64,000 bases of DNA from Sternotherus odoratus (taxonomy: Eukaryota > Chordata > Testudines > Kinosternidae). Positions 7,127 through 58,387 of the stretch are shown here, one piece after another. The translations under genes were made by a program, and so were the position numbers. A model generated the notes under the pieces. That model worked only from the letters and a program-made list of their open reading frames with translations, did no database searches and was not told the DNA's origin. The first letter of the stretch is position 1; every line of letters begins with the position of its first letter. Location of the stretch: the NCBI GenBank assembly GCA_032164245.1, contig JAVMKO010000209.1:62001-126000 (forward strand), given 5' to 3'.

Positions 7127-7317
7127 CTAGATGGTTCCTCCACTTCCAGCCCCTTTACCCTCCATGATGCTGATGCTACCCCTATGAGTCTTCTCCAGCC
7201 CTGTGGGATCAGGCAGGCCCTGTTTCTTCAGCACGAAGGTGATGACAGGTGCAGAGAACAAGAGGAGCAGGACCAGGGCACAGCGGGCAGCCCAGATGGC
7301 GAAGGACATGACCAGCT
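7127..7317 (-). CDS. Gene B, transmembrane and short cytoplasmic exon
   Basis: After the acceptor (catgttgcag) the exon reads ELVMSFAIWAARCALVLLLL and continues FSAPVITFVLKK, a single membrane segment followed by basic residues. The phase fits: the final G of each Ig exon plus AG gives Glu. An Arg lies inside the hydrophobic stretch. In LRC and Fc-receptor families such a residue pairs with an acidic residue of an ITAM adaptor (FcR gamma or DAP12), so an activating role is inferred. The remaining tail is about 30 residues to a TAG at 7127-7129 and has no ITIM or ITAM. An alternative donor (gtaaag) at 7157-7158 would end the exon at 7159 and lead to a further exon that I cannot find. The exon is 2.6 kb from the last Ig exon. 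Confidence 0.7.
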
Positions 7318-9963
7318 CTGCAACATGGAGAGACGTGGTGACAGCCATCTGCAAAGCAGCGTGTGGGACTGCAGTGCCAGCACTAGACACAGAGCAGCCA
7401 TGTGAGCTCCCGGAGGCCTAGATCTAAGGGGGGATCATGCTGCAGAGGGGCACGTTCCTTGTACGGGAGGCCTAAGTGATGGAGGCTTCTGGGGAGGCTT
7501 CTCCCTTTGCCCAGCACAGCCCTGAGGGGTCGGAGGAGCAGGGAATGGCCCAGGGTTGTTCAGGTTGCACTGGGACTCTGTGCAAAGGCCTCACAAGAGC
7601 CAGCAACAGATGCAGCAGCCCAGACCCTGTCACCCCTCTTCAGTGTGACCCCACCCTGGGCAGAGGGGCAGAATGAGGTGTTGGCACCAATTGTATGTTC
7701 AGGCGATGGTGGACGTGGGATGGAAACGATGCCAGGGGCTGGGGGCTGTGCTGCTCCTCTGCTCTGGGGGAATTGCACCAGCAGAGCCCATCCCATCCAG
7801 GGTGACTGTGCTGCAGACCAAGGAGTTACCCACCCCGGGGTGAGCTTGGCCCAGACTTTATGTCCTGAGGTCGGAGTTGGGGGCACAGAGCCGGGCTCTG
7901 ATAATCAGGGTGTGACAGAGCAATAGCCCGTTACCTGGGCGGGTCGTCTCCTCCCCTCCTCCGCTGCTGCTCGCACTGCCTGTGGGACAAGGGCAAAGAG
8001 AATCGCACCGTGTGGGAGAGACGCCTGCAGCCTCCCCAGGGACCCGCCTCCCAGGGACAGACAGAGCGGTTCTGACAGCCACTGGGGCCAGATCCCCACC
8101 GGGTGTAAATTGTCGTCCTTCCATTGGAGTCCACAGGGCTCTGCCAGTTTACACCAGCTGAGGGGCTGGTCCCGGGACTCTCTCTTGCTTTGAGTGTCAC
8201 ACTGAGTTTCCCCACTGCAGACTCTGTGAGGACATCACTGTCCCTTTAACAAACCCTCATGTCACTGATCCCTGGCCCCTGACACTGAGGTTGAAGCTCT
8301 GCGGGGGTGAAAATGCCCCAGGATTAGGGTTGCGAAGTGTCCAATTTCTGACTAGAACATCTGGTCAAAAGGAAAACTGGGGGCTCCAGTCAGCACTGCT
8401 GATTTGCGGCTGTTAAAAGTCCAGTCAGTGGCATGGCGGGGCTAAGACAGGTCCCCATGACTCCAGGTGGCTCCCAGAATCAGAGGCATGTCCCACCTCT
8501 GGCTCCTATGTGAAGAGTCAGCCAGGGGGCTCCACACACTGCCCCAGCCCAAGAACCTCCACATAGGAGCCAAAGGGGAGACATGCCGCTGCTTCTAGGA
8601 GCTGTCTGAGGTAAGCGCCACCTGGAGACTGCACCCCCTCCCTTTTCCCAACCCCTGCCCTGATCCCCCTCCTGCCCCATGGGCCCCTTGATCCCAGAGC
8701 ACCGTCCTGCATCCCAAACTCCTCATCCCCATCCTCACCTCACAGCCCCCAATTGGAGCCCTCGCCCCCTCTCACACACCAACCCCCCCTAGCCAGCCCT
8801 GTGAAAATGAGCAAGTGAGTGAGCATGGGGAAAGCGAGCGAGGGACAGAGGAGGGGATGGAGTGAGTGGGGGGCGGAGCTTCAGAGAAGGGGCAGGGCAG
8901 GGCGTTCTCTTTTTGTGCAAGTAGAAAGTTGGCAACTCTACCCAGGATCTCCCTGCCCCCGCTCCCAAATCAGATGCTCTCCTCTGTGGAGCACCCTCGG
9001 GGAACTGAATGTGCGGGAGACCCCTGCACCCTGCAGACAGGCTGGGGTTCGCCTGGGGGGCAGGGCGGGGTGTGTGACAGGCTTTGAGCTCAGGTGACTT
9101 TCCCCAGCTGCCCTGTACCTGGGGCTGCACCAGGCCTAGGCCCTGCTCACCCACCAGTGCTGAGGGTGGAGGGGAGTTACGTGCTGCCTGGCCCTGGGGC
9201 TGGCCCCCTGCATAGGCCGGGTTCACTGCAGAGAGCTGGGTCTCCCCCTGGGGTAAGTGCTGCAGGCAGAGGATTTACCCCAGGGGTGAGTTTGGCCCAA
9301 AGTCTCCATGCAGCGAGGGGAGAGCTGGGGGGACAGAGCCGGGCTCAGATCCCGGGGTCTGGCCCAAGAGCGTCTCCGTGAGCTGAGAGGTCTGACTCCT
9401 CCCCACTGCCGCTCGCCTGCCCTGTGCAATGGGGACGAGGAGAATCTGTGCCCCCTACACCAGTCAAAAGGGACATGACTCCTCCCCAAAGATCAGTGAA
9501 TAGCTCTGTGAGTTCTCCCAAATGTTATGCACATCACCGGCATTTGGCAGCCCTGTCGCCCTGTGCAGAAGTTGTGTGTGTGGGCATGGGTTCCCCACAA
9601 AGCGCCTTGGAGTTGTCAGATAGTCCCAAACGATGGGCCGAGAGACCCTGTGCTCTAGGCCCAGCCCTTCCAATCAGGGCTGTTAACTTCTCTCTCTTCT
9701 TCAAGCCCCAAGTATGAGCGAGGTGTTCATGCCCCTCAAGTACAGTTAACAGATGTCATTCACCCTTGGAATGGATAACGAAGGGTTGCATAAGGAAACT
9801 GGAGGTAGAGTTAATTATACGAAGGAGGTTCATAGTTTGGCAAACCCAGTCTCATCCACCTAATTCTTCTGCTCATCACCACTGTCACTCGGCTATCTGC
9901 ATCTGGACTCTCTTTCTGACAGGGCATGGATGATTTACTCGCTTTGCCACTCACCCCTCTTAC

Positions 9964-10257
9964 CAGTAACGCTGAGGTGCTGGGCAGAGCTGAGCTTGGA
10001 TCTGGTCACCCCTTTATCACTCTCCCTGATCTCATATCCGCAGGAGTAATTCCCAGAGCTGCCCATGGACACTGCATGGTCATAGGTGTAGGAAACATTC
10101 TTCTCCAGCTCTGTCCAGAAGTAAACCTCCTCTCCATCCTTACAAAAGACGACGCGGGTGACTGGGGCCTGGGAGACCACAGAGCACTTGAGCCGCACAA
10201 AGTCCCCCTGTCGAGCGGACGTCTGGTTCAGGTGGAGGATGGGGGCATGGAGAGCAC
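9964..10257 (-). CDS. Gene B, Ig-domain exon 4 (membrane-proximal)
   Basis: A 294-nt exon in phase 1, with acceptor ccttcccag and donor gtaaga. It encodes one C2-type Ig domain. Motifs include ALHAPILHLNQTSARQGDF at the start, the first cysteine in RLKCSV, VVFCKDGEEV, and SSGNYSCGYEI with the second cysteine. Extra cysteines in FCKDG and a possible glycosylation site NVSY are present. It is highly similar to the exons at 12623 and 15471 and less similar to 17564. It is preceded by its own mini-exon at 10819-10857. The next exon in the gene is the membrane exon. The frame is intact. Confidence 0.8.
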
Positions 10258-10818
10258 CTGGGAAGGGGAATGGGTCAAGGGGTCAATGGGGCCTTCAGTG
10301 GCCCCTGTTTCATGGGGATCCCAGGAAGCTATTTGCCAAAGGAAGTGAGTTGCTGTGGAAGCAGCTGCTAAGGGTATGTCTATTGTGTAGTTAAAAACCC
10401 TCTGCTGGACCATGCCAGATGAGTCAGGCTTCCAGGGCTTGGACTACAGGGCTGTTTACATATCACGGGCCAGCCATAGGCATCTAATTGTAGTGTGGAT
10501 GTACTCTGCCTGCTCAGGATCTCTGGGGCATGCACAATGTCTCTGGAGCAGACTCTTATTTCAGCACAGCTGGGTACTGGGTGAAGTGTCAGATCTGAGA
10601 CTGTCAGCTCTTCGGGGGCAAGGACCAGAGCGTATCGGTGGGCAGCACCTGTCATGATGGTGCCTTGATCCCTGAGAGGGGCATCCGGGGCCACAGTAAT
10701 AATAATAATACTTAATCTTCTGTAACTGGAAGCCTTTTCTACTAGTACAAACCCCTCTGTCGAGATAGATAGCTGGAGGGGTGTGTGTGTCTGGGCACAG
10801 ACAGACAGACGGACTCAC

Positions 10819-10857
10819 CGGGAGCTGAGCAGATATCCTGGCTGCTGGGACTCAGCG
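10819..10857 (-). CDS. Gene B, mini-exon of block 4
   Basis: A 39-nt exon in phase 1 with acceptor ctgttcccag and donor gtgagt, reading ALSPSSQDICSAP. It is nearly identical to the mini-exons at 13488, 16241 and 18338. The copy nearest the start exon would complete the signal peptide, as the short second exon does in LRC receptors. In this position it could serve only as a 13-residue linker with one Cys, or be skipped. Confidence 0.6.
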
Positions 10858-11001
10858 CTGGGAACAGAAAGGAGACCTGTCATTAGTGCTGGAGATAAAA
10901 ACTCCCCCTTTTATGATGTCCCTCTTCAGGGAGAAAAACTGCCTCACTCTTGATCTTGGTTGTAAGTGCTGGTGACAGAGGAGTTACCCCAGAGGTTAGA
11001 T

Positions 11002-11820
11002 CAGGGGTGGGCAAACTTTTTGGCCCGAGGGCCACATTGGGGTTCAAAATTGTGTGGAGGGCCAGGTAGGGAAGGCTGTGCCTCGCCAAATAGCCTGCCC
11101 CCCCCCATCTGACTCCCACTCACCTCCCACCCCCTGACTGCCCCCTCAGAGCTCCCAAGACATCCAGCCCCCCCGCTCCTTGTCCGATTGCCCCCTCCAG
11201 AGATCCCCCCCCTCCCTAACTTCCCCCCGCAGGACCCTACCCCGTACCTAAGCCCTCCTGCTCCTTGTCCCCTGATTGGCCCCTTCCAGCAACCCCCCAC
11301 TCTAACTGCCCCCCAGAATCCCCAATCTAAGCCCCCTGCACTTAGTTCCCTGACTGCCCTCTCCCGAGACCCCCCCACCCTAACCACCACCCAAGCCCCC
11401 CTGAGCGCCCCTCACCCCCGTTCTTGCTTACTTTGCTCAACCGGGCATGGCCCCACGGCTTGCTGCTCTCATCTGGCTCCTCGCCTGGCCCCGGCAGCTC
11501 AGCCCGGCACCCCCGGGCGGGAGCGCGGCGCCCCTCACCGCGCTGCTCGGCCCCTGGGCACGGAGGAGGGGGCCACTGGCACCACTCCCCTGCCGAGAGC
11601 TCGCAGGCCGGATAAAATTAAAGTGAAATAAAGAGAAATACGCGCCACTCCAACAACGGTCAATGTGTTTTGAGTGCGCCATCTATTGGGGAAACGTGGG
11701 CATTGCAGGGAAAGGGGAAAAAAAGCAGGTTTTTACTATAATTTGGACAAGTTCGGCGGGCCGGATTAAAAAGCCTAACGGGCCGTATGTGGCCCGCGGG
11801 CCGTAGTTTGCCCATGTCTG
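11002..11820. mobile_element. hAT-type non-autonomous DNA transposon
   Basis: Termini are CAGGGGTGGGCAAACTTTTT at the left and agtttgcccatgtctg at the right, inverted repeats of hAT type (CAGGGGT...). An exact 8-bp target duplication, GGTTAGAT, flanks it at 10994-11001 and 11821-11828. The middle is C-rich and non-coding. It lies in the gene B intron between blocks 3 and 4. A related copy is at 38906-39765. Confidence 0.93.
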
Positions 11821-12622
11821 GGTTAGATTGTCCCAAAGTCCCTCTGTATCAAGGAGAGACCTGTGGGGACAGAGCTGGTCTCAGATCCCAAGCATCTGGC
11901 CCAAGAGTGTCTCCATGAGCTGTGGGGTCTGACTCCTCGCCTGGCCTGTGCAATTTGGATGAGGAGACTCAAAGGGTGTGTGTGTCAGGGCCTCAAGTGA
12001 CCCTCAGTGTGTGAGAAACACGGCTGCGATGGCTGCGCCCAGCCCCCTGCACCAGTCAAATGGGACACGACTGTTCCTCAAATGGAAACTTCCCAGAAAG
12101 GAACAATATGAGTGGCTCAGTCAGGCCAGCTAAATGTCCTGGATTCCCCAGTCAGCGGTGGAATTCAGCTACTGGCCAGGACACGCTGTGCTCTAGGTCC
12201 AGCTCTTCCATACAATGTTAGTAACTCCTCTCACACTTCACAGCTCATGCAGCTATGTTATAGGTGCCAGGTGTCATTCACACAGCACACCCCGGTCAAA
12301 ACAACTGTTTCTTCGTACATTTAAGAGGAAATGTGCCAGATTTACAAGCATGGTTAGGCTGCCTCTAATATTAACCACTATCGGCTTCCAGATCTAAAAA
12401 GAGAACCCAGGAGTCCTGGGAACTAACATCCCTCTGCTGTCTCACTAACATGTGTGTGACCCACCAACAACATGGGTGTCATGTCTTCATCTATGGGCTG
12501 ATGCAAATGGAGGATAACAACCCAATTCTGCTCATCACCACTGTCACTCAGCTATCTGCATCTGGATTCTCTTTCTGCAAGGGCAAGGATGATTTACTTG
12601 CTTTGCCACTCACCCCTCCTGC

Positions 12623-12916
12623 CAGTAATGCTGAGGTGCTGGGCAGGGCTGAGCTGGGATCTTGTCACTGGCTTATCGCTCTCCTTGATCTCGTACCCAC
12701 AGGAGTAATTCCCGGAGCTGCCCATGGACACCCCATGGTCATAGTTGTAGGTGACCTTCTTCTCCAACCCTTCCTGGGAGAAAACCTCCTCCCCGTCCTT
12801 ACAGAAGACAACACGGGTGGCTGTGGCCTGGGAGACCACAGAGCACTTGAGCCGCACGGAGTCCCCCTGTCGAGCGGATGTCTGGTTCAGGTAGATGGTG
12901 GGGGCACGGAGAGCAC
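12623..12916 (-). CDS. Gene B, Ig-domain exon 3
   Basis: A 294-nt phase-1 exon encoding a C2-type Ig domain (RLKCSVVSQATATRVVFC; EEVFSQEGLEKKVTYNYD; SSGNYSCGYEIKESD). The acceptor is normal. The donor differs from the other three Ig exons: the usual TG|GTAAGA is TG|GCAGGA here, because GT has become GC. A strong GTGAGT nine bases further would extend the exon to 12614 and add three in-frame residues. So exon 3 may use a GC donor, the shifted donor, or be skipped, and all three keep the frame. Its sequence is otherwise intact and very close to exons 2 and 4. Confidence 0.75.
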
Positions 12917-13487
12917 CTGGGAAGGGGAATGGGTCAAGGGGTCAATGGGGCCTTCAGTGGACCATTTCATGGGGATCCCAGGAAGCTATTTGTCAAAGGA
13001 AGTGAGTTGCTGTGGAAGCAGCTGCTAAGGGTATGTCTATTGTGTAGTTAAAAACCCTCTGCTGGACCATGCCAGATGAGTTGCGCTTCCAGGGCTTGGA
13101 CTACAGGGCTGTTTACATATCATGGGCCAGCCGTAGGCATCTAAGTGCAGTGTGGACGTACTCAGCCCGCTCAGGATCTGTGGGGCATGCACAATGTCTC
13201 TGGAGCAGACTCTTATTTCAGCACAGCTGGGTACTGGCGGGGGGATAATGTCAGATCCAAGACTGTCAGCTCTTCGGGGGCAGGGACCAGAGCTTCACAT
13301 AGGGGTGCGCAGCACCAGACGCAATGGGCCCCTGATCCCTGAGAGGCGGTCTGGGGGCCACAGTACTACTACTAATAATAATAATCTTCTGTAGCTGGAA
13401 GCCTTTTCTACTAGTACAAACCCCTCTGGTGAGATAGATAGCCGGAGGGGTGTGTGTGTCTGAGCACAAGTAGACAGACAGACTAAC

Positions 13488-13526
13488 CTGGAGCTGAGCA
13501 GATCTCTTGGCTGTTGGGACTCATAA
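13488..13526 (-). CDS. Gene B, mini-exon of block 3
   Basis: A 39-nt phase-1 exon, acceptor ctgtccccag, donor gttagt (weaker than the gtgagt of its sisters). It reads VMSPNSQEICSAP after joining a preceding G. It is the most diverged of the four mini-exons at its 5' end but keeps length, phase and the Cys. Confidence 0.55.
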
Positions 13527-13698
13527 CTGGGGACAGAAACGTGACATGTGGTTAGAGCTGGAAATAAAATCTTTGTCTTTTCTAAGGTCCCTCTTCAGGG
13601 AGAAAAACTGCCTCACTCTCACAGTTGGCCTCACTCACTTGGTTGAGCTGAGTTTCCCTCTGGTGTAAGTGCTGCTGGCAGAGGAGTTACGCTAGATG

Positions 13699-14303
13699 CA
13701 GGGGTGAAAGTAACTTAACTTTCTTACCGGTATGGGGGATTGGCTGGGGCCAACTCTGGCCCCCGGAAGGGGTGTGGCCTCGGGAGGAAGGGATGGGGTT
13801 GGGGGGGTCAGAGCCAGCCCCAGCCCAGCCCCCGTATCAGTAAGGAGCCTCTTCCCCCCCCCACTCCCTTCTTCAGCCCCAACCCCCCCCCCCCCGGGGC
13901 CTCCGGCGGCAGTTTAAAGGGCCCGGGGTGGTAGCGGGTTCTTTAAATATCTATCGGAGCCCCGTCGCCGCTTCCCTAGGTTTCCGGCAACAGGGCTCCC
14001 GTCCCCGTGGAGCCCTGGGGAGGCTGCGGCAGGGCTCCGATAGCTATTTAAAGAGCCCAGTGCTGGGCTGTCGCTTCTGCTACTGCCCGGACCCTTTAAA
14101 CTGCTGCCATAGCCATGCCGCAGCTTCCCATGGGCTCCCACAGCGGGGGCTCTGGCAGCAATTTAAAGGGCCTGGGGCTACAGCTGCTGCTGGGAGCCCC
14201 AGGCCCTTTAAATTGCACCTGGGGAAGCCGATCCGCCCCGGTACGATGCATGGACTCTTGCCGGTACACTGTACCGGGGCATACCAGATTACTTTCACCT
14301 CTG
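13699..14303. mobile_element. hAT-type non-autonomous DNA transposon
   Basis: Inverted termini CAGGGGTGAAAGTAA and ttactttcacctctg, with near-identical 8-bp flanks (GCTAGATG and CCTAGATG). The interior is GC-rich with repeated 'gggctccgatagctatttaa'-like motifs and no convincing coding frame. It sits in the gene B intron upstream of mini-exon 3. Confidence 0.88.
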
Positions 14304-14770
14304 CCTAGATGTCAGTTTGGCCCAGTCTCTCTGCAGCGAGGGGAGAGATGGGGGGACAGAGTTGGGCTCAGATCCCAATCATCTGGCCTAAGAGCGTCTC
14401 CGTGAGCTGTGGGGTCTGACTCTCCAGTGCTGCTCACCTGGCCTGTGCAAGGGGAACAAGGAGAATCTGGGCCTGTCAGAGCCTCTGGATGACACTCAGT
14501 GTGTGAGAAACGTGGCTGCGATGGCTGAGCCCAGCCCCCTGCACCAGTCAAATGGGACACGACTGTTCCCTGAATGGAAAATTCCCCAAAGGAGCTCCCA
14601 GAGGGCCTCAATCAGCCCAGATAAATGTCATGCATTCCTCATACAGAGTCGTGGAGCCTGGGAGTGGCATTCAGCTACTGGCCAGGACACCCTGTGCTCT
14701 AGATCCAGCTCTCCCACTCAGTGTTAGTAACTCCTCTCACACTTCACAGCCGCTAGCTCATGCCACTATG

Positions 14771-15063
14771 ACCTCGTTTTCACTACGTGCGGGAAGGATC
14801 AATCTTCTGGTGATCGATTTATCACGTCTCATTAAGACGCGATAAATCAATCGCCAGCGGCTCCCCCGTCGACTCCGGAAGTCCAGCTCCTCAAGAGGCG
14901 CAAACTGGAGTTGATGGGGGACCATGCCGCTGACCACCGCCGCAGTGAGGACGAGAGGTAAATCGTCTGTAGAGACGTTGATTTCAGCTACGTTATTAAC
15001 GTAGCTGAAATTGTGTATCTACAGCCGATTCCCCCCCTTCCCCCCCCCAGTGGAGACCAGGCC
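14771..15063. mobile_element. Amniote MITE with internal palindromes
   Basis: It contains gatcgatttatcacgtctca and agacgcgataaatcaatcgc as facing arms, and ttcagctacgttattaacgt followed by agctgaaatt. These are features of a MITE I know from turtle and crocodile genomes. It ends in agtggagaccaggcc. Borders are approximate. Confidence 0.65.
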
Positions 15064-15470
15064 ACAGTTATAGATGCCAGATTGCACAAGGTCACTTGAG
15101 GCTGTGCTGGAATAGAAGGGAGGTTTTCACACAGCAAACCCCAGTCAAATCTACTGTTCCTTCATACATTTAAGAGGGAAAGTGCCAGATTTATGTGTAT
15201 GGCTATCCTGCCTTTAACACTAACCACAGTCTGCTCCCAGATCTAAGAAGAGAACACAGGAGTCCTGGGAACTAACATCCCTCTACTGTCTCCTTAACAT
15301 TTGCATGACCCACCAACAACATGGGTGTCATGTCTTCATCTAAACCTAAGAGCTGATGCAAATGGAAGATAACAGCCCAATTATTCTGCTCATCACCACT
15401 ACCTGCATCTGGATTCTCTTTATGCCCGGGGATTGGATAATTCATTCACTTTTTTGTTCACCTCTCTTAC

Positions 15471-15764
15471 CAGTAATGCTGAGGTGCTTAGAAGGGCTGA
15501 GCTGGGATCTGGTCACCCGCTTGTCGCTCTCTTTGATCTCGTAACCGCAGGAGTAATTCCCGGAGCTGCCCATGGACACCCCATGGTCATAGCTGTATGT
15601 GACCTTCTTCTCCAACCCTTCCTGGGAGAAAACCTCCTCCCTGTCCTTACAGAAGACAACACGGGTGGCTGTGGCCTGGGAGACCACAGAGCACTTGAGC
15701 CGCACAAAGTCCCCCTGTCGAGCGGATGTCTGGTTCAGGTAGATGGTGGGGGCACGGAGAGCAC
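15471..15764 (-). CDS. Gene B, Ig-domain exon 2
   Basis: A 294-nt phase-1 exon with consensus acceptor (ccttcccag) and donor (gtaaga). It encodes one C2-type Ig domain with cysteines in RLKCSV and GNYSCGY, and the shared segments RVVFCKDREEVFSQ and ESDKRVTRSQLSP. The start contains NQTS, a possible N-glycosylation site shared with exons 3 and 4 but not exon 1. The frame is intact. Its mini-exon partner is 16241-16279. Confidence 0.8.
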
Positions 15765-16240
15765 CTGGGAAGGGGAATGGGTCAAGGGGTCAATGGGGCT
15801 TTCAGTGGCCCCTGTTTCATGGGGATCTCAGGAAGCAGTTTGCCAAAGGAAGTGGGTTGCCATGGAAGCAGCTGCCAAGGAAATCTAAGTGCAGTGTGGA
15901 CGTACTCTGCCTGCTCAGGAGCTGCGGGCTGTGTTCATCATCTCTGGAGCAGGCTCTTATTTCAGCACAGCTGGGTACCAGGTGTGTAATGTCAGATCTG
16001 AGACTGTCAGCTCTTCGGGGGCAGGGAGCAGAGCTTCACATAGGCATGTGCAGCACCTGACACGATGGGGCCCTGATCCCTGAGAGGGGCATATTGGGGC
16101 CACAGTAATAGTACTAATAATACTTAATAATTATTTTCTGTACCTGGAAGCCTTTTCTACTAGTACAATTCCCTCTGGCATGATAGATAGACAGAGGGGT
16201 GAGTGTGTCTGGGCACAAAACGACAGACAGATGGACTCAC

Positions 16241-16279
16241 CGGGAGCTGAGCAGATCTCCTGGCTGTTGGGGCTTAGCG
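16241..16279 (-). CDS. Gene B, mini-exon of block 2
   Basis: A 39-nt phase-1 exon, acceptor ctgttcccag, donor gtgagt, reading ALSPNSQEICSAP. It has the same borders and nearly the same sequence as the mini-exons of blocks 1 and 4. Confidence 0.6.
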
Positions 16280-17563
16280 CTGGGAACAGAAAGGAGACAC
16301 GTGGTTAGTGCTGGAGATAAAATCTTTGTCTTTTCCAAGGTCCCTCTTCCGGGCTGAAAACTGTCTCACTCACACAGACCTTGGTTGAGCTCAGTCTCCC
16401 TTTGATGTAACTGTTGCTGGGAGAAGAGTTTGACCCAAAGTCTCTATGCAGCAAGGGGAGAGCTGGGGGGACAGAGCCAGGCTCGGATCCCCAGGGTCTG
16501 ACCCAAAAGCATCTCCGTGAGTTGTGGGGTCTGACTCCTCCCCACTGCTGCTCGCCTGGCTTGTGCAATGGGGATGAAGAGAATCTGGGCTGGTCAGAGC
16601 CTCCAGGTGACCCTCAGTGTGTGAGAAACGCGGCTGGGATCGCTGCAGCCAGCCCCATACACCAGTCAAACGGGACACGACTGTTCCCTGAATGGAAACC
16701 TCCCCAAAGGTGCTCCCTGAGTGGCTCAATCAGCCCACCCAAATGTCATGAATTCCTCACACAGAGTCCTGGAGCCTGGGGGGGCTCTTAGCTACAAGAC
16801 AGGACACCCCGTGCTTTAGGTCCAACTCTTCCCCTCAGTGTTAGTAACTCTTCTCGTACTTCACAGCCACTAGCTCATGCCGCTATGTTATAGGTGCCAG
16901 GTGTCATTCAGCCCTTGTAGGATAATGAAGAGTTGTACAAGGTCACTTGAGGCTGTGCTGGAATAGAAGGGAGGTTTTCACACAGCAAACCCCAGTCAAA
17001 TGTACTGTTCCTTCGTACATTTAAGAGGGAATTTGCCAGATTTATGTGCATGGCTATGCTGCTTCTAAACTAATCACAGTCTGCTCACAGAGCGAACAAG
17101 AGAACCCAAGAGTTCTGGGAATCAACATCCCTCTGCTGTCTCACTAACATTTGTGTGACCCACTGGCAACATGGGTGTCAGGTCTTCATCTAAGGGCTGA
17201 TGCAAATGGTGGATTGTAGTAGTTGTATCATGCAAGCACGGTACTAAGAAACTTCAACAGGGCTATATTTAACAACAGTGAAACCTCTTTACAGAGCTAC
17301 TGCTACACCCCTCTGTAGCTGTCACTCAGGCTTGGTTCAACTTCTCCCCCTCCTTCCTGTTTCCTGTCCTATAGACTCCCAATAGCCAGTGCTCCGAGTT
17401 CTAATAATTACATGCAGCCTGTAAAACACCACAATAGTAGAATTTTATGAGTAAACAACCCAGTTATTCTGCTCATCACCACTGTCACTCAGCTATCTGC
17501 ATCTGGATTGTCTTTCTGCCAGGACATGGATGATTTCTTCACTTTGCCATTCATCCCTCTTAC

Positions 17564-17857
17564 CAGTAATGCTGAGGTGCTTGGCAGGGCTTAGCTGGGA
17601 TCCATTCACCTGGTCGTCACTGTCCTTGATCTCATACCCGCAGGAGTAATTTCCAGAGCTGCCCATGGACATTTCATGACTGTAGCTGTAGGTGATCTTC
17701 TTCTCCAACCCTGTCTGGGAGAAAACCTCCTCCCCATCCTTACAGAAGATGACACGGGTGGCCTGGGCCTGGGAGATCACAGAGCACTGGAGCAGCACAA
17801 AGTCCCCTTCCTGGGCAGACCTCTGGCTCATGTAGAGGGTGGGTGCAGGGAGAACAC
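17564..17857 (-). CDS. Gene B, Ig-domain exon 1 (membrane-distal)
   Basis: A 294-nt phase-1 exon with acceptor ccttcccag and donor gtaaga, encoding VLPAPTLYMSQRSAQEGDF, then LLQCSVISQAQATRVIFCKD, and later SSGNYSCGYEIKDSDDQ. The first-domain start PAPTLYMSQ resembles the start of LRC/Fc-receptor domains. It is the most diverged of the four Ig exons, as expected if it is the original distal domain and the other three arose later. The open frame continues upstream into intron sequence, which should not be counted as coding. Confidence 0.82.
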
Positions 17858-18337
17858 CTGGGAAGGCCAATTGGTCAGAGACATCAGATGAGGTCACAGG
17901 GGGCAGACCAGGGAGCAGTTTGCTAAAGGAAGTTGATTGCCATTGAAGCAGCTCGCAGTTGCTAAGGGTCTGTTTCATCTCACCACAGCAATTATAAACC
18001 AACTGCTGGGCAGTGCCAGGTGACTCAGGCTTCCAGGGCTCAGGTTATAGGACTGTTTACATGGCATAGGCCAGCCACATGTGTCTAATTGCAGTGTAGA
18101 TTAATTCTGCCTGCACAAGGGATGCATGGTATGTGCAAGGTCTCTGGGCCAGGATCTTATTTCAGCATGACTGGCTATCAGGAGGATAATTTCAGATATG
18201 AGATTGTCAGCTCTTCGGGGACCACAGTAATAATAATAATAATAATTAATAATAATCTTTTGCAACTGAAACCCTTTCTATTAGTACAAGCCCCTTTTGA
18301 AAAAATAGATAGATAGAAGGGTGACAGACAGACTCAC

Positions 18338-18376
18338 CGGGAGCTGAGCAGATCTCCTGGCTGCTGGGACTCAGCG
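18338..18376 (-). CDS. Gene B, mini-exon of block 1 (signal peptide, second part)
   Basis: A 39-nt phase-1 exon with acceptor ctgttcccag and donor gtgagt, encoding ALSPSSQEICSAP. Joined to the start exon it gives MILSLCLLLL-ALSPSSQEICSAP-G, a plausible signal peptide, matching the two-exon signal peptides of LRC receptors. This is the mini-exon most likely to be used in every transcript. Confidence 0.65.
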
Positions 18377-19280: not shown

Positions 19281-19311
19281 CAAGAAGCAAAAGGCACAGA
19301 GACAGGATCAT
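19281..19311 (-). CDS. Gene B, start exon (signal peptide, first part)
   Basis: From ATG at 19311-19309 the minus strand reads MILSLCLLLL and stops at the donor G|gtgagt in phase 1. The hydrophobic run without charge suits a signal peptide. No other in-frame ATG is visible just upstream, and no copy of this exon is seen near blocks 2-4, supporting a single transcription start for the whole array. The true 5' end and promoter are not visible to me. Confidence 0.65.
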
Positions 19312-21643: not shown

Positions 21644-22646
21644 CAGTAAAACCTCCATTTAACGGACTAATTTGGGCGAGGGGGTGTCCGTTAAATCAGA
21701 AAGTCCGTTATTTAATAAAAAAAAAACCCGAGCTGTCGGAGCAGCAGTCCGCCAGCCACAGGGCCGGGGCGGCAGCTCCGCAGACCGCCCGCTGCCGGGA
21801 CCCGGGCAGCAGCCGGGAGCCATCAGCCAGCCCACCCAGGTCCCAGCTGCTGGGACCAAGGCGGCAGCCAGGAGCCGGGAGCCAGCCCGCCCGGGTCCTG
21901 GCTGCTGGGACCCGGGCGGCAGATGGGAACCGTCAGCCAGCCCGCCCACTGGTGGGACTCGGTCGGGACCCGGCAGCCAGCCAGCCCGCCCGCAGGTGGG
22001 ACCCGGGCGGGACCCGGCAGCCAGCCCGCCCGCTGGCGGGACTCGGTGGGAGCCGGGAACTGGCAGCCCGCCCGCTGGCAGGACTCAGGCGGGAACTGGC
22101 AGCCCACCCACAGGCGGGAGCCGGGCAGGAGCTGGCAGCCAGCCCGCCCACGGGTGGGAGCCGGGAGCTGGCAGCCCGGACCCGGGCGGGAGCCGGCAGC
22201 CAGCCCGCCCGCAGGCGGGAGCCAGGAGCCAGCCCGCACGGGGCCCGGCTCCCGGGACCCGCCAGCCAGCCCGCCCACTGTGGGGAGCCAGGCGGCAGCC
22301 GGGAGCCGGCAGTTAGCCCGCACGGGTCCCAGCTCCCGGGACCCGCCAGCCAGTCCGCTTGCTGCTGGGAGCCGGGCGGCAGCCGGGAGCCGGCAGCCAG
22401 CCCGCCCATGGCTGGAACCCCAGCAGCAACCAGGAGCCAGCAGTCAGCCCGCACGGGTCCCGGCTCCCGGGACCTGCCAGCCAGCCCGCCCGCTGCCGGG
22501 AGCCGGCAGCCAGCCCGCCCGCTGCCTGGACCTCGAAAAATGGATTTTGGATGCATCAGACTTGCTTAAAAATTTTGTCCGTTGCATCCGAAGTCCGCTA
22601 AATCGAGGTCCGTTAAATCGAGGTCCGTTAAATTGAGGTTTTACTG
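21644..22646. mobile_element. Tigger/pogo-like DNA transposon with internal GC-rich minisatellite
   Basis: Termini CAGTAAAACCTCCATTTAAC and ttaaattgaggttttactg are inverted repeats of Tc1/mariner (Tigger) type, bounded by TA on each side. The middle (about 21780-22540) is a GC-rich tandem repeat with a core like agccagcccgcccgctg. Long open frames of Pro/Ala/Gly/Arg in all frames come from this repeat and are not genes. No transposase is present. Confidence 0.85.
21780..22540. repeat. GC-rich minisatellite inside Tigger-like element
   Basis: An imperfect tandem array of variants of ggcagccagcccgcccgctg with gggagccgg between them, roughly 40-60 bp per unit. A related array occurs inside the second Tigger-like element at about 34090-34695. 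Confidence 0.9.
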
Positions 22647-24354: not shown

Positions 24355-25905
24355 TTAGTCTGTTCTCATGGCGATCGGGGGAGGTCCCGGATGACTGGAA
24401 AAAGGCTAATGTAGTGCCCAACTTTAAAAAAGGGAAGAAGGAGGATCCAGGGAACTACAGGCCAGTCAGCCTCACCTCAGTCCCTGGAAAAGTCATGGAG
24501 CAGGTTCTCAAGGAATCAATCCTGAAGCACTTAGAGGAGAGGAAAGAGATCAGGAACAGGCACCATGGATTCACCAGGGCAAGTCATGCCTGGCTAACCT
24601 AATTGCCTTCTACGATGATATAACTGGCTCTGTGGATGAGGGGAAAGCAGTGGATGTGATATTCCTTTACTTTAGCAAAGCTTTTGATACGGTCTACCAC
24701 AGTATTCTTGCCAGCAAGTTAAAGAAGTATTGGCTGGATGAATGGACCATAAGGTGGATAGAAAGCTGGCTGGATCATCAGGCTCAACAGGTAGTGATCA
24801 ATGGCTCCATGTCTAGTTTGCAGCCGGTATCAAGCAGAGTGCCCCAAGGGTCTGTCCTGGGGCCGGTTTTCTCCAATCTTTTTATCAATGATCTGGAGGA
24901 TGGTGTGGACTGCACCCTCAGCAAGTTTTCAAATGATACTAAACTGGGAGGAGTGGTAGATATGACGGCAGCAATATGGGGGTAGGGATAGCTCAGTGGT
25001 TTGAGCATTGGCCTGTGAAACCCAGCGTTATGAGTTCAGTCCCTGAGTGGCCCATTTAGGGATATGGGAGAAACAAATAGGGCTTGGTCCTGCTTTAAGG
25101 TCCCTTCTAGCTCTGAAATTCTATGATCCTATGGAGGGTAGGGATGGATGCAGAAGGACTTAGACAAATTAGAGGATTGGGCCAAAAGAAATTTGATGAG
25201 GTTGGACAAGTGCAGAGTCCTGCATTTAGGATGGAAAAATCCCATGCCCGGCTAGGAAGTGGCTCTGCAGAAAAGGACCTAGGGGTTACAGTGGATGAAA
25301 AACTGCATGTGAGTCAAGAGCATGCCTTTGTTAAAAAGAAGGCTAATGGCATTTTGGGCTGTATAAGTAGGGGCATTGCCAGCAGATCAAGGGACGTGAT
25401 CGTTCCCCTCTATTTGACATTGGTGAGGCTTCACCTGGAGTGTTGTGTCCAGTTTTCGGGCCCACACTGCAAGAAGGAGGTGTAAAAATTGAGTCCAGAG
25501 GAGGGCAACAAAAATGATTAGTGGCCTGGAGCACATGACTTATGAGGAGAGACTGAGAGAACTGGGATTGTTTAGTCTACAGAAGAGAAGACTGAGGGGA
25601 GATTTGATAGCTGCTTTCAACTCCCTGAAAGGGGGTTCCAAAGAGGATGGATCTAGCGGTACCGACTGACAGAACAAGGAGTAATGGTCTCAAGTTGCAG
25701 TGGGGAAGGTTTAGGTTGGATATTAGGAAAAATCTTATTCACTAGGAAGGTGGTGAAGCATTGGAATAGGTTACCTAGGGAGGTGGTAGAATCTCCTTCC
25801 TTACAGGTTTTCAAGGTCAGGCTTGATAAAGCGCTGTCTGGGATGATTTAGTTGGGGATTGGTCCTGCTTTGAGCAGGGGGTTGGACTAGATGACCTCCT
25901 GAGGT
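24355..25905 (+). mobile_element. CR1 LINE, reverse transcriptase part, degraded
   Basis: Plus-strand frames show CR1 reverse transcriptase in order: KKANVVPNFKKGKKEDPGNY, RPVSLTSVPGKVMEQVL, VFSNLFINDLEDGVDCTLSK (the next motif reads FSNDTKL instead of FADDTKL), and [19 protein letters not shown]. Several frame changes and the altered catalytic motif (Asn in place of the first Asp) show it is dead. A SINE at 24979-25136 splits it. The end carries the 3' region (ggttggactagatgacctcc). Confidence 0.92.
24979..25136 (+). mobile_element. tRNA-derived turtle SINE (Cry type)
   Basis: The segment gggatagctcagtggtttga, then gcattggcctgtgaaaccca and gagttcagtcc, shows the A and B boxes of a tRNA-derived Pol III promoter. 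The tail (ggtcccttctagctctgaaa) is the usual 3' part. This SINE family is a marker of cryptodiran turtles. It is inserted in a CR1 copy. Confidence 0.88.
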
Positions 25906-28506: not shown

Positions 28507-31500
28507 CAGGGCCGGCTCTAGCTTTTTTGATGCCCCAAGCAAAAAAAAACCCAAAAAACAAACATAAGAACATAAGAACATAAGAACGGCCATACTGGGT
28601 CAGACCAAAGGTCCATCTAGCCCAGCATCCTGTCTACCGACAGTGGCCAATGCCAGGTGCACCGGAGTGAGTGAACCTAACAGGTATGATCGAGCGATCT
28701 CTCTCCTGCCATCCATCACCCCCCTCTGACAGACAGAGGCTAGGGACACCATTCATTACCCATCCCGGCTAATAGCCATTTATGGACTCAGCCTCCATGA
28801 ATTTATCCAGCTCTCTTTTAAACCCTGTTATAGTCCTAGCCTTCACAGCCTCCTCAGGTAAGGAGTTCCACAGGTTGACTGTGCGCTGTGTGAAGAAGAA
28901 CTTCCTTTTATTTGTTTTAAACCTGCTGCATGCCAATTTCATTGAATGGCCCCTAGTTCTTCTATTTTGGGAACAAGTAAATAACTTTTCCTTATTCACT
29001 TCCTCCACACCACTCATAATTTTATATACCTCTATCATATCCCCCCTTAGTCTCCTCTTTTCCAAGCTAAAAAGTCCTAGCCTCCTTAATCTCTCTTCAT
29101 ATGGGACCCGTTCCAAACCCCTAATCATTTTAGTTGCCCTTCTCTGAACCTTTTCTAGTGCCAGTATATCCTTTTTGAGATGAGGAGACCACATTTGTAC
29201 GCAGTATTCAAGATGTGGGCGCACCATGGATTTGTATAAGGGCAATAAGATATTCTCCGACTTATTCTCTATCCCTTTTTTAATGATTCCTAACATCCTG
29301 TTTGCTTTTTTGACTGCCGCTGCACACTGCGTGGATGCCTTCAGAGAACTATCCACAATGACTCCCAGGTCTTTTTCCTGATTGGTTGTAGCTAAATTAG
29401 CCCCCATCATATTGTATGTATAGTTGGGGTTATTTTTTCCAATGTGCATTACTTTACATTTATCCACATTAAATTTCATTTGCCATTTTGTTGCCCAATC
29501 ACTTAGTTTAGTGAGATCTTTTTGAAGTTCTTCACAGTCTGCTTTGGTCCTTACTACTTTGAGCAGTTTAGTATCATCTGCAAACTTTGCCACATCACTG
29601 TTTACCCCTTCCTCCAAATCATTTATAAATAAGTTGAATAGGATCGGCCCCAGGACTGACCCTTGGGGAACACCACTAGTTACCCCTCCCCATTCTGAAA
29701 AAGTTCCATTTATCCCTACCCTTTGTTCCCTGTCTTTTAACCAGTTTTCAATCCATGAGAGGATCTTCCCTCTTATCCCATGGCAGCTTAATTTACGTAA
29801 GAGCCTTTGGTGAGGGACCTTGTCAAAGGCTTTCTGGAAATCTAAGTACACTATGTCCACCGGATCCCCCTTGTCCACATGTTTGCTGACCCCTTCAAAG
29901 AACTCTAATAGATTAGTAAGACACGATTTCCCTTTGCAGAAACCATGTTGACTTTTGCCCAACAATTTATGCTCTTCTATGTGTCTGACAATTTTATTCT
30001 TTACTATTGTTTCAACTAATTTTCCCGGTACGGACGTTAGACTGACTGGTCTGTAATTGCCAGGATCACCTCTAGAGCCCTTTTTAAATATTGGCGTTAC
30101 ATTAGCTATCTTCCAGTCACTGGGCACAGTAGCCGATTTAAAGGATAGGTTACAAACCCTCGTTAATAGTGCCGCAATTTCACATTTGAGTTCTTTCAGA
30201 ACTCTTGGGTGAATGCCATCTGGTCCCGGTGACTTGTTACAGTTAAGTTTATCAATGAGTTCCAGAACCTCCTCTACTGATACTTCAATTTGTGACAATA
30301 CCTCAGATTCGTCACCTACAAAAGACAGCTCAGGTTTAGGAATCTCCCTAACGTCCTCAGCCGTGAAGACTGAAGCAAAGAATTCATTTAGTTTCTCTGC
30401 AATGACTCTGTCATCTTTAAGTGCTCCTTTTATATCTCTGTCATCCAGGGGCCCCACTGGTTGTTTAGCAGGCTTCCTGCTTCTGACATATTTAAAAAAC
30501 ATTTTGTTATTACCTTTTGAGTTTTTGGCTAGCTGCTCTTCAAACTCCATTTTAGCTTTTCTTATTACATTCTTACACTTTATTTGGCAGTGCTTATGCT
30601 CCTTTCTATTTACCTCACTAGGATTAGACTTCCACTTTTTAAAAGATGCCTTTTTCTCTCTCACTGCTTCTTTTACTTGGCTGTTAAGCCACGGTGACTC
30701 TTTTTTAGTTTTCTGGCGTTGTTTTTTAATTTGGGGTATACATTTGAGTTGGGCCTTTATTATGGTATCTTTGAAGAGAGTCCATGCAGCTTGCAGGGAT
30801 TTCACTTTAGTCACTTTACCTTTTAATTTCCGTTTAACTAACCCCCTCATTCTTTCATAGTTCCCCTTTTTGAAATTAAATGCCCCAGTGTTGGGCTTCT
30901 GAGGTGTTATTCCCACCATAGGAATGTTAAATGTTATTATATTATGGTCACTATTTCCCAGCGGTCCTTTTATAGTTACCTCTTGAACCAGATCCTGCGC
31001 TCCACTCAGGACTAAATCCAGAGTTGCCTCTCCCCTTGTGGGTTCCTGTACCAGCTGCTCCAAGAAGCAGTCATTTAAAGTATCAAGAAATTTCATCTCT
31101 GCATTTCGTCCCGAGGTGACATGTACCCAGTCAATGTTGGGATAATTGAAGTCTCCCACTATTATTGGGTTCTTTATTTTGACAGCCTCTCTAATCTCCC
31201 TTAGCATTTCGTCATCCCTATCACTGTCCTGATCAGGTGGTCGATAATAGAGCCCTATTGTTATGTTCTTATTAGAGCATGAAATTACTATCCATAGTGA
31301 TTCTATGGAACATGTGGATTCATTTAAGATTTTTACTTCATTTGATTCTACACTATCTTTTACATAAAGTGCCACTCCCCCGCCCCCACGACCTATTCTG
31401 TCCTTCCGATATATTTTATACCCTGGAATGATTGTGTCCCATTGATTGTCCTCGGTCCACCATGTTTCTGTGATACCTATTATGTCAATATCCTCCTCTA

Positions 31501-31920
31501 ACACGAGGCACTCTAGTTGACCCATCTTATTATTTAGACTTCTGGCATTTGTGTACAAGCACTTTAAAAACTGGTCACTGTTCATCTGTCTGCTCTTCCC
31601 TGGTGTGTCAGATTCTTTATGTGAAAATTTCTCATCTGATCTGGCCCCTCCTTTATCCTTTTCCATCCTTTCCTGTCTAGAACCTAGAGAATCTTTAACA
31701 ACAGACCCTCCTGTAAGAGAAGTCTCTATCCGATCCACGTGCTCCTCTGCAGCAATCGGCTTTCCCCCAAACAAACAAACAAAAACAAACCAAGGAGGCC
31801 GGAGTGGCCAAACAAACAAACAAAATAAAGTGTGTGGACATGCTTGGACAGATCGCCGCCCCTTTATAATCTGCCACCCCAACTGCCAACTTGCTCGGCT
31901 GGTGCCTGGAGCCAGCCCTG
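28507..31920. mobile_element. hAT-like element split by a CR1 insertion
   Basis: The left part (28507 to about 28563) begins CAGGGCCGGCTCTAGC and the right part (about 31770-31920) ends ggagccagccctg, inverted termini of a common reptile hAT-like MITE whose sequence includes 'gccccaagc' and 'aatctgccacccc'. The outer 8-bp flanks match only 5 of 8 bases. The CR1 copy entered the A-rich part of this element. Related copies lie near 46722-46925. Confidence 0.65.
28564..31770 (-). mobile_element. CR1-family LINE with an intact ORF2
   Basis: An uninterrupted minus-strand frame (28769-31993, 1074 codons) encodes a full endonuclease-reverse transcriptase. Endonuclease motifs: TNARSLNNK near residue 148, ITETWW, GDFNYPNIDW, and LGNSDHN. 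RT motifs: IFKKGSRGDPGNYRPVSLTS, then QKAFDKVPH, GVPQGSVLGP, and FADDTKLL near residue 804. The first 78 or so residues are encoded by the flanking hAT-like element, so the LINE's own frame begins near AAEEHVDRIE. The 3' end has three ATAAGAAC-type repeats. ORF1 and the 5' UTR are missing, so the copy could not move alone, but the lack of any stop suggests recent insertion. Older relatives lie at 34899 and 40104. Confidence 0.95.
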
Positions 31921-32599
31921 GCCTGATGGCAGGGAGCATGGGGGGTCTTGGACCATACTGGACAGGAGGTGGCAGCACCTGATGGGCATGCACTGCAACC
32001 AGTGGGTGCTTGTTGTACTAGGTAGCCCCCTCTTGTCCTGGGCCCTGCGGGGCTGCTGGAGCCCCAATGCCCCATTCTCCCATCAGTGCCCCTGGGGGAG
32101 AATGAACTTCTGTCAGTGCCCCTGGCCCCATTTCCCCACCAGGGTTCCCAGGGGAGACTGGACCTCCCCCAGCATCATACCCCCACCAGTACCCATGGGG
32201 TGATGTGAGTGTCCTGCCCCCTCCCCCCACCTGTGCTCCAGGTCCAGCAGGGAGCTATACCTGGCCAAGCTGCAGCCAGGTGAGGCCTGGCCTGAGTTGG
32301 AGGAGAAGTGGGGCAGCTCGACAGAAGTGGTGGCTCTGGAGCAGGGTTCCTGAGAGTGGTCTGGTTGGGAATGCAGGGGGGTCCAGTTCAGGAACAGAGG
32401 TTCAGGAGGAGCCCTGTTCTGGTAGGCAATGGAGACGTTCGGGTAGAGAGGGCTAAGTTCATACAGGGGTCTGGTCTGGTTCAGGCTGGAAGAGGGTCTG
32501 GTCCCATTTGGGGTTTTTGGTTTGAGGAAGAATGTGGGTCCGGTCCTGTTTGGAGTGGGGGTCATTCTGGTAAGGGATGTGGGTCTGATCTGCTTTGGT

Positions 32600-34008: not shown

Positions 34009-34859
34009 CAGTAAAACCCTGATTTAACGGACTTCGGATGCAACGGACAAAATTTATGAGCAAGTCCGATGCATCCAAAATCCGTTTTTTCGGGGGCTGG
34101 CTGCCGGCGCCCGGCTGCCGCCCGGATCCAGGCAGCGGGCGGGCTGCCTGCCGGCTCCCCGCTGCCTCCCCGGTCCAGGCAGCGGGCAGGCTGGCTGCCG
34201 GCTCCCCGCTGCCGCCCAGGTCCAGGCAGCTGGCGGGGCTGACTGCCGGCTCCCCGCTGCCGCCCGTGTCCAGGCAGCCGGCGGGCTGACTGCCAACTCC
34301 CCGCTGCCGCCCGGGTCCAGGCAGCTGGCGGGCTGACTGCCGGCTCCCCGCTGCCTCTCGGGTCCAGGCAGCGGGCGGGCTGCCTGCCGGCTGCCCGCTG
34401 CCAGCCCGCCCGGGTCCCGGCTGCTGGCTGCCGCCCGGATCCCAGCAGCGGGGACCTAGGTGGGCAGGCGGGCTGACAGCTCCCGCCCGGTTCCCAGCAG
34501 CCGGGGACCCGGGCGGGCGGGCGAGCTGCTAGCTGCCGCCCGGGTCCCAGCAGCCGGGACCCGGGCGGGCAGGCTGACAGCTCCCGCCCCGGTCCCAGCA
34601 GCCGGGGACCCGGGCGGGCAGGCAGGCTGACGGCTCCTGCCTGGGTCCCAGCAGCCGGGACCCAGGCGGGCGGGCTGACAGCTCCCGGCTGCCGTGATAA
34701 GTAAAACCTCGATATAATGCACTAATTCAGGTGAGGGGGTGTCCGTTAAAGCCGAAAGTCCTGTTATTTAATAATTTAAAAAAAATATTAAATAGCGGAC
34801 TTTCGGCTTTAATGGACACCCCCTCGCCCGAATTAGTCTGTTATATCGAGGTTTTACTG
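34009..34859. mobile_element. Tigger-like element with minisatellite and terminal palindrome
   Basis: It starts CAGTAAAACCCTGATTTAAC and ends cgaggttttactg. The middle (34090-34695) is a GC-rich array with repeats of ctgccgcccgggtccaggca. The right end is a long hairpin (34700-34858). No transposase is seen. It is related to the element at 21644-22646. Confidence 0.8.
34700..34858. repeat. Long imperfect palindrome (about 2 x 75 bp)
   Basis: The left arm starts agtaaaacctcgatataatg and the right arm, reversed and complemented, starts agtaaaacctcgatataaca. Arms also share gagggggtgtccgttaaagc and gccgaaagtcc with few mismatches, around a short AT-rich centre near 34779. It could fold into a long hairpin. 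Confidence 0.92.
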
Positions 34860-57281: not shown

Positions 57282-58387
57282 CTGCAGGGAGAGACCATGA
57301 GTGTGAGTATCAGGAAATCATGTCAGGAAATCACCCATGTGGTTCCTCAGCTACCGGTGGATATAGGGTGACTGTGACTGGAAAGCTCCTTTCCCGTACA
57401 TTCAAAGCCTGTCTGGGATCCCTTATCCTGACAACTGAGGAAATTAAATAATACCATCTTGTATTTCTATAGAGCACTTAGCACTGAAGTCTCACTGAGG
57501 AATGTGCAGAGTGAAACTGCTACACAGAGATCACTGCACTTGCAGCTGAAATGCAGCCACTTCTGGGGTGAAACCAAATAGTTGTCAGTATCTTCAGCAC
57601 AGAGCAGGAGGTGAGGGTTGGTGACCCTACCTACATCACTTCTCCCACATCTCCTGCGCCACCTTCCTAAATACCTTCCCTTGTGGTGTCCTTCTCCCAC
57701 TCTGGTAAAGGTGCCCCAGACCATACCACCACGCATGCTTGGATTTCCCTCTCCCTGTGTTTCATACAATCACCCTCCCCTCACTTCAATCTCGCCCTAA
57801 AAGCAGATATCTCCTGTGGAGCCTTTGCACTAGGAGCCACCAAAGATGGAAGATGATTTAAAACAACCTCAATGCTCTGCATTGTCACAGGATGGCCCCT
57901 CACCTGGGGTTTGATGTTTCTGAACTGTATTGTCTGAGGCTACGTTTCACAGAGAGCTTAATGGGCAGAGACCATCCCTTCCACTGTACTTGTTCAGCAC
58001 CCAGGGAATAACAAATAATATCCCAGCCCTTGGACACTGTAGGGGGAGTTTCAGGGACACAAAACATAATTATAATTTATCACCTGAGCTGGGATCTGGG
58101 CAGAACATGGGGGTAAAGGTCCCACTCCCTCAAACAGCATCACCATGAGCATGAGAGCTGAGGACAGTAGCTTTACATCTCATTGAAAGGAGGTTGTTTA
58201 ATGCAGCACTGACCTTGCGAGCACCCCAGTGGGGTCAGTTCTGAGTGTGAGGGGAGAGCGCCCCCTACTGAGTCCTTCACATCACTCCCTGCAGCATAGG
58301 ACCCTGCTGCCATGCTGGCTCATTGTTGTGGTACCCCCCAGAAGGCTTTGGCTGCCAGGCACAGCGCTTCCTTCTGCAGCACGTTAC

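Follow-up and report, generated by a model that had tools for sequence, protein, structure and literature searches.

The chicken CHIR and turkey TILR receptors resemble the turtle genes considered here in being sauropsid receptors of the leukocyte receptor complex (LRC) with activating and inhibitory members; the available excerpts of PMC3601082 describe a split signal-peptide exon followed by one exon per immunoglobulin (Ig) domain, with one to two Ig domains, and mention neither the exon phase nor an internal signal-peptide exon. In the Xenopus XFL genes, one domain type is repeated up to seven times per protein behind a two-exon signal peptide, under a phase 1 rule that the window gene described below shares, and the excerpted parts of PMC2413239 likewise say nothing of signal-peptide exons lying among the Ig exons. 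For the painted turtle, the excerpt of PMC4054807 gives 35 putative natural killer (NK) Ig-like receptors, 14 of them with membrane segments, a count that suits a large turtle family. Here we describe a receptor gene of the turtle Sternotherus odoratus located in a stretch of 64,000 nucleotides (the window; positions 62,001 to 126,000 of contig JAVMKO010000209.1, hereafter C209, of the 1.76-Gb assembly GCA_032164245.1). The gene runs on the minus strand from 19311 down to 7127. It comprises a single start exon, four blocks in which a 39-nt mini-exon precedes a 294-nt Ig exon, then a stem exon and finally a single membrane exon. To our knowledge, a single copy of signal-peptide exon 2 is the rule in mammals and birds; in the gene described here this exon, the mini-exon, is not confined to the 5' end but occurs in four copies, and 12 internal copies were found in the set of genomic stretches analyzed. 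We consider it likely that this is a single gene for an activating LRC-type receptor, that its ectodomain grew by cassette copying, that its product includes every mini-exon, and that each mini-exon and Ig domain together form a folding unit.

The start exon (19281..19311, 31 nt, encoding MILSLCLLLL) ends in phase 1 at a GTGAGT donor and is identical (0/31 differences) to the copy on C43, where a second array is located (see below). Block 1 consists of the mini-exon that serves as signal-peptide exon 2 (18338..18376, 39 nt, ALSPSSQEICSAP) and a 294-nt Ig exon (17564..17857). The three internal mini-exons and their Ig exons follow in block 2 (mini-exon 16241..16279, 39 nt, ALSPNSQEICSAP; Ig exon 15471..15764, 294 nt), block 3 (mini-exon 13488..13526, VMSPNSQEICSAP, with the weaker donor GTTAGT; Ig exon 12623..12916, with a GC donor and an alternative in-frame GTGAGT that would give 12614-12916) and block 4 (mini-exon 10819..10857, 39 nt, ALSPSSQDICSAP; Ig exon 9964..10257). 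The stem exon (7935..7979, 45 nt) is in phase 1, and the membrane exon (7127..7317) encodes an Arg within the membrane segment, a short tail and the stop codon. Throughout the gene, coding introns are in phase 1 at both ends, and no block contains a frameshift or stop. Splicing with all mini-exons yields an open frame of 532 residues up to the stop; the frame also remains open when the internal mini-exons (in a product that also lacked the stem) or block 3 are left out. A first-pass annotation of the window had reported a 39-nt mini-exon and a 294-nt Ig exon in each of four blocks, all open and all in phase 1, with internal mini-exons that preserve the frame whether used or skipped, and the spliced products agree with it on each of these points; the limits that it gave, 9964 and 18376, coincide exactly with the lower boundary of the block 4 Ig exon and the upper boundary of the block 1 mini-exon. 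The third Ig cysteine, the decayed stem copies within the blocks, and the recurrence of this layout, both at further loci of the genome and among other turtles, are additions to that annotation.

When the minus strand was scanned for start exons across the 64 kb, five candidates passed the filters, including two between 7 and 20 kb (19281-19311 and 8497-8584). The candidate at 8497-8584 is poorer and lies downstream of the blocks, and 19281-19311 is the sole candidate upstream of the blocks whose hydrophobic core is strong and whose donor is good. A search of the window gave no near-copies of the start exon and located one membrane exon; together with the scan, this upholds the earlier proposal of one gene with a single start exon and a single membrane exon. 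The idea that the blocks are separate genes with their own starts was rejected on the basis of the scan, as no second start exon within the blocks passed its filters. A chance match as the source of the mini-exons was also ruled out, as the four mini-exons matched at E values of 1.4e-5 to 1.3e-4 in the window search and the next best match had an E value of 0.58.

The same layout recurs in the genome. A second four-block gene, with the same exons and collinear with the window array, is located on C43 at 5.594-5.610 Mb; the two arrays align in six collinear pieces with 90-96% identity, and their splice dinucleotides are identical at 20/20 sites (22 dinucleotides were tabulated, the outermost two of which are not splice sites). 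At 4.305 Mb, C43 carries a five-block gene that likewise has a single start exon and a single membrane exon; the mini-exon of its fifth block is 36 nt long and flanked by CAG and GTGAGT, and its first block (C43 ~4.322 Mb, L014) looks damaged, with a mini-exon that lacks the Cys and a partial Ig match. Two-block genes lie on C43 at 4.34 and 4.38 Mb; each has a stem, and the stretch yielded no membrane exon belonging to it. Across the genomic set (14 stretches and 2 more, from match lists filtered by length and identity cut-offs), 12/12 internal mini-exons are intact, each being flanked by AG and GT, open in frame and endowed with the Cys; half of these 12 belong to the window and its near-copy, 11/12 are 39 nt long and 1/12 is 36 nt long. 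Five genes of the set have two Ig exons with no mini-exon found between them. The repeated signal-peptide exon, which had been called unusual for an Ig receptor, is therefore present as described and is not confined to the window gene, as it recurs within the turtle family. The layout is real and recurrent, and it is probably used. As to the arrangement of the contigs, the C209 stretches compared run in reverse order relative to C43 and are mostly 90-99.5% alike, and membrane-exon matches on C142 score the same as those on C43; C209 and C142 may represent, relative to C43, alternative haplotypes of an unusually divergent immune cluster, or C209 and C43 may reflect a duplication.

Three protein searches provided the predicted proteins P0001-P0126; the first of these found 104 homologous proteins at an E value of 0.001 or better, nearly all from turtles and a few from birds. 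The internal mini-exon peptide was found in 30 copies in 16 gene models chosen for carrying the motif, some of which overlap or represent isoforms of one locus; these models come from the genera Gopherus, Chelonoidis, Mauremys, Dermochelys, Natator, Pelodiscus and Chrysemys. In P0049, a copy of the internal peptide is not followed by an Ig domain. Predicted proteins P0001, P0002, P0003, P0004, P0005, P0011, P0112 and P0113 resemble the window gene in having the linker peptide between Ig domains; they differ in carrying two to four Ig domains, and additionally P0003 has no membrane segment and P0113 has a stem peptide between domains. Three other turtle models (P0047, P0118 and P0120) join SRCR domains to Ig domains of the window-gene family, in P0047 also to its membrane segment, which represents either fusion or model error.

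In a domain tree (which took 3/4 domains of P0002 and of P0112 and 1/2 of P0013, and from which the last Pelodiscus domain was absent), the Ig domain of window block 1 grouped with the first domain of the Dermochelys and Natator models (99/92), and that of block 4 grouped with the last domain of the Dermochelys, Mauremys, Gopherus and Chelonoidis models (97/93). Each of the last-group domains from these four genera has a linker peptide ahead of it in its model; the Natator model P0005 has no domain in this group, and the three Pelodiscus domains in the tree cluster together. The last-block Ig is thus orthologous across Dermochelys, the tortoises and Mauremys, and the internal mini-exon in front of it is, by the same token, old. 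Dermochelys belongs to Americhelydia within Durocryptodira and Pelodiscus to Trionychia, lineages whose splits date back over ~90 and ~120 million years, respectively. The front copy reads V(M/I)NPSSQ(N/K)IC in P0001, P0011, P0004, P0112 and P0002 (from Gopherus, Chelonoidis, Mauremys and Pelodiscus), and the internal copies in these models read SQEIC, SKEIC or SPEIC, a difference that hints at a divergence of front and internal copies before the softshell split.

With regard to the receptor family, the folds nearest to the structural model are those of LILRB4, KIR, NKp46 and PirB, i.e., a C2-type Ig fold of the LILR/KIR kind, and the gene has a signal peptide split over 31 and 39 nt followed by one phase-1 294-nt exon per Ig domain. 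The predicted fold and the split signal peptide fit the LRC kind, and we regard the window gene as a variant of the LILR/KIR-like (LRC) receptors. When blocks 1 and 4 were scanned with Pfam Ig_2 (cut-off 27), the block 4 Ig scored 33.8 bits and the block 1 Ig, with 25.4 bits, remained just under the cut-off. Compared to the activating LRC receptors (LILR, PIR-A, KIR-S, NKp46 and FcalphaRI), the window gene differs in having signal-peptide exon 2 before every Ig exon and in an extra candidate Cys pair, formed by the mini-exon Cys and a Cys in strand C of the Ig domain. Structural models with the linker (P0011) and without it (P0020) both align to LRC domain pairs mostly at a root-mean-square deviation of ~13, a high value meaning that the two modelled domains do not superpose jointly. 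Membrane exons of the Arg type and of a second type, which in turtle homologues is followed by tails with EYASV and TYATI, are both present on C43 and on C209; the cluster would hence appear to contain paired activating and inhibitory members. A search of titles and abstract starts in the full-text literature, whose coverage excludes most subscription journals, found nothing on internal signal-peptide exons in turtle receptors.

We propose that the ectodomain was enlarged by tandem copying of a cassette of mini-exon, Ig exon and stem exon. Since exon 1 has no acceptor, the mini-exon, as exon 2, would be the first spliceable exon in any copied or read-through unit and would automatically be carried along ahead of every newly added Ig exon, with phase 1 joined to phase 1; units could thus also have been added by read-through. 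At the N-terminus, the mini-exon would end the signal peptide and begin the mature chain. Internally, it would provide a 13-residue segment whose Cys probably pairs with the additional strand-C Cys (FCKDGEE) in the Ig domain that follows; the mini-exon would thus add a Cys-bearing N-terminal cap, and the two exons would together encode a single folding unit. We infer that the mini-exons are included in the mRNA and that the receptor signals through an adaptor, the membrane Arg being expected to recruit one with an immunoreceptor tyrosine-based activation motif (ITAM). In a separate observation on C43 (~4.334-4.346 Mb; L015, L029 and L030), a two-block gene with an intact stem, for which no membrane exon was found, is followed downstream by a complete one-Ig gene with its own start and mini-exon; this pair is a candidate for read-through into a fused receptor.

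The repeat units of the window array are spaced 2.1-2.8 kb apart, and each holds a decayed copy of the stem exon on the minus strand. These copies are located at 16522..16560 in block 1 (neither AG nor GT remains, limits set by eye), 14407..14442 in block 2 (CT for GT by eye, limits approximate), 11920..11945 in block 3 (shortened, CT for GT by eye, limits approximate) and 9383..9421 in block 4 (GT lost, limits set by eye). No copy retains its donor (4/4 lost, two of them judged by eye from a poor alignment), and the block 1 copy lacks its acceptor too. With a stem copy in every unit, the copied piece was the whole mini-exon/Ig/stem cassette, of which the mini-exon and Ig exon were kept intact and the stem decayed; the loss of the stem may have been a single event that preceded the copying. 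Stems are retained elsewhere: the order Ig, stem, mini-exon, Ig occurs in the predicted proteins P0113, P0025 and P0026. Between blocks 3 and 4, an insert at ~10998-11824 has ends (GGGCAAACTTTTTGGCCC and GGGCCGTAGTTTGCCC) that by eye resemble mutual inverted copies, and it is probably a DNA transposon.

Every Ig exon of the window gene encodes, beyond the usual pair, a third Cys in strand C (FCKDGEE or FCKDREE). An alignment of 22 paralogues, bird proteins among them, shows no variation at this Cys and a conservation of at least 90% for the Cys of the mini-exon. Among the later Ig exons of the S. odoratus genome, the strand-C Cys is present in 12/12 of those with a mini-exon and in 0/5 of those without, which have Tyr or Phe instead (P = 1.6e-4 if the exons are taken as independent; Fisher's exact test). 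It is also present in 14/14 scored first Ig exons with a mini-exon, and two Ig exons of unassigned mini-exon status both show FC. In the predicted proteins, 28/29 later domains with an upstream Cys segment carry the strand-C Cys, as compared to 13/25 without, the upstream Cys having been called automatically, so that a few Cys from outside mini-exons were counted, and 20/176 domains having been dropped as duplicates. These patterns suggest that the mini-exon Cys probably bonds with the strand-C Cys of the following Ig domain. The P0011 model places a short helix at the linker (residues 126-132), with ten-residue mean pLDDT values of 66 and 89. At least 90% conservation among the 22 paralogues was also found for S, Q, E and C of SQEIC and for the terminal P and G of the mini-exon, and the mini-exon end, from SQEIC onward, is therefore probably kept in the mature protein. 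To describe the mini-exon as the second half of a signal peptide, as had been done, is hence correct in that it is normally signal-peptide exon 2 and too narrow in that its conserved end is likely mature.

The four Ig exons are under purifying selection; between the window and its C43 near-copy, the nonsynonymous rate (dN) was 0.020 and the synonymous rate (dS) 0.088 (dN/dS of 0.23), and dN/dS among the Ig exons of different blocks ranged from 0.19 to 0.58. For the mini-exons, excluding the 36-nt copy and the damaged first copy of the C43:4305000 gene, the corresponding ratio of proportions (pN/pS) was 0.46 for internal copies (11 of 12) and 0.36 for 11 front copies, and the divergence among 11 internal copies was 0.16 as compared to 0.27 in the flanking intron, in pairs that are not independent.

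One alternative is that the internal mini-exons are mostly skipped, which would yield an ordinary four-Ig protein with short joints, the mini-exons being passive leftovers preserved by chance or gene conversion. The preserved frame allows for this, and some models, e.g., P0008 and P0010, join Ig to Ig directly. However, the internal mini-exons are intact in 12/12 cases as opposed to 0/4 stem copies in the window, they diverge less than their flanks overall, and models of the seven turtle genera include them; we thus consider skipping unlikely. The earlier suggestion that copies 2-4 become 13-residue linkers or are skipped can be narrowed accordingly, as inclusion is favored by the intact internal mini-exons, by their inclusion in other turtles' models and by the tracking of the mini-exon by the Ig Cys, and the segment is better described as part of a domain module than as a bare linker.

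Several findings weigh against inclusion of every mini-exon and against the proposed Cys pairing and receptor type. The window and C43 arrays show 7/117 differing sites in their three internal mini-exons, which equals the intron rate (518/9365 sites), speaks against constraint at this depth of comparison and also favors skipping; four of these seven changes alter an amino acid. The block 3 mini-exon, compared with those of blocks 2 and 4, differs at 7/39 sites as compared to 40/258 and 37/242 in the flanks, which indicates no extra conservation. On the side of inclusion, a rough neutral simulation (excluding the 36-nt mini-exon, the damaged first mini-exon and the three C43:5594000 near-copies) gave a probability of 8e-7 for 8/8 internal mini-exons remaining intact, an order of magnitude at best and an overstated one, as the simulation used a star of copies with the consensus as ancestor. 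With the Cys column masked, the tree required three changes in strand-C Cys, one of them forced by strong branches; the association between Cys and mini-exon thus reflects between one and three independent changes, a number that does not permit a formal test. In the damaged first Ig of the five-block gene, which was not scored, FC is kept and the mini-exon Cys is lost; the C43_6046 Ig exon shows FC with no mini-exon found in 4.5 kb upstream. The 13 Cys-bearing later domains without an upstream Cys segment (in P0006, P0007, P0008, P0010, P0021, P0022, P0030 and P0111) could reflect skipping or model error, which are indistinguishable here. A junction-centred protein search yielded nine gene models or fragments, none of which counts as RNA evidence. 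Finally, the membrane segment, IWAARC, has the Arg with no Asn three residues earlier, i.e., an inexact match (WAAR) to the NxxR motif that the excerpted PMC2413239 associates with the FcRgamma pairing type in activating receptors.

The weakened donor noted earlier in block 3 is real and twofold. Using a position weight matrix (PWM) with frequencies set by hand rather than taken from a tool and with the GT position unscored, the block 3 Ig donor, with GC for GT, scored 2.7 as compared to 5.3 in the other three Ig exons, and the mini-exon donor GTTAGT scored 4.5 as compared to 5.9 for the other mini-exons. Both weak donors are common to the window and the C43 copy. It is conceivable, if improbable, that alternative splicing sets the number of domains, with whole blocks, chiefly the GC-donor block 3, spliced in or out to give two to four domains; with phase-1 exons any block can be removed in frame, and the Pelodiscus LOC102449859 models, named isoforms X3 and X4, are unlike in domain make-up. 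On the other hand, purifying selection acts on the block 3 Ig as it does on the remaining Ig exons (dN of 0.018 and dS of 0.095 as compared to C43), and we take it as used; moreover, an in-frame GTGAGT 9 nt downstream of the GC (score 4.9) would on paper keep the phase and add three residues. Alternative splicing of this kind is compatible with, rather than opposed to, the single gene with modular mini-exon/Ig units that we favor. Lastly, it is highly improbable that the blocks are separate genes or fragments without exon 1 and membrane exon, with only block 4 or block 1 in a working gene. In favor of this reading, tandem clusters in this family are large and include fragments, the C43:5676000 stretch shows a single block followed by a stem and a membrane exon for which no start was seen, and the stem copies indicate the copying of entire cassettes. 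Against it, all four Ig exons show constraint, every block is free of frameshifts and stops, and the first and last domains group with the first and last domains of same-layout models from other turtles.

It is possible, although we stop somewhat short of calling it probable, that the signal-peptide exon is a reusable part in turtles, with a Cys-stapled copy accompanying each added Ig domain, the exon pair acting as the unit of growth, and an origin before the split of sea and pond turtles and perhaps before the softshell split. Three points lowered our confidence in this broader reading: the damage to the first block of the five-block gene, the C43_6046 exon, and the absence of one Pelodiscus domain from the tree. 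If true, it would provide a clear example of a signal-peptide exon that has become a module between domains, and would suggest a rule by which exon 2 becomes a joint when cassettes or neighboring genes fuse, exon 1 having no acceptor. This would represent a route for immune receptors to gain domains, with a concrete cysteine pairing proposed, and predicted turtle receptors with this peptide between domains need not be annotation errors.

In the surroundings of the receptor gene, an open frame at 1360-2304 on the plus strand encodes a butyrophilin-like protein with SPRY and PRY domains (PRY just under the cut-off), and a minus-strand frame at 58323-58925 with a V-set Ig domain (50 bits) is perhaps another butyrophilin-like gene. 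An Rfam scan of the window gave 0 matches at the gathering score, and a tRNA scan of the window, which used the bacterial code, gave none. GC-rich tandem repeats with units of 40-142 nt are located at 21791-22506 and 34093-34687. A minus-strand frame of 1082 codons without a stop (28772-32017), with endonuclease and reverse transcriptase domains, belongs to a long interspersed nuclear element (LINE) of considerable length, which we take to be CR1-like, and a second reverse transcriptase fragment is found at 24428-24982 on the plus strand.

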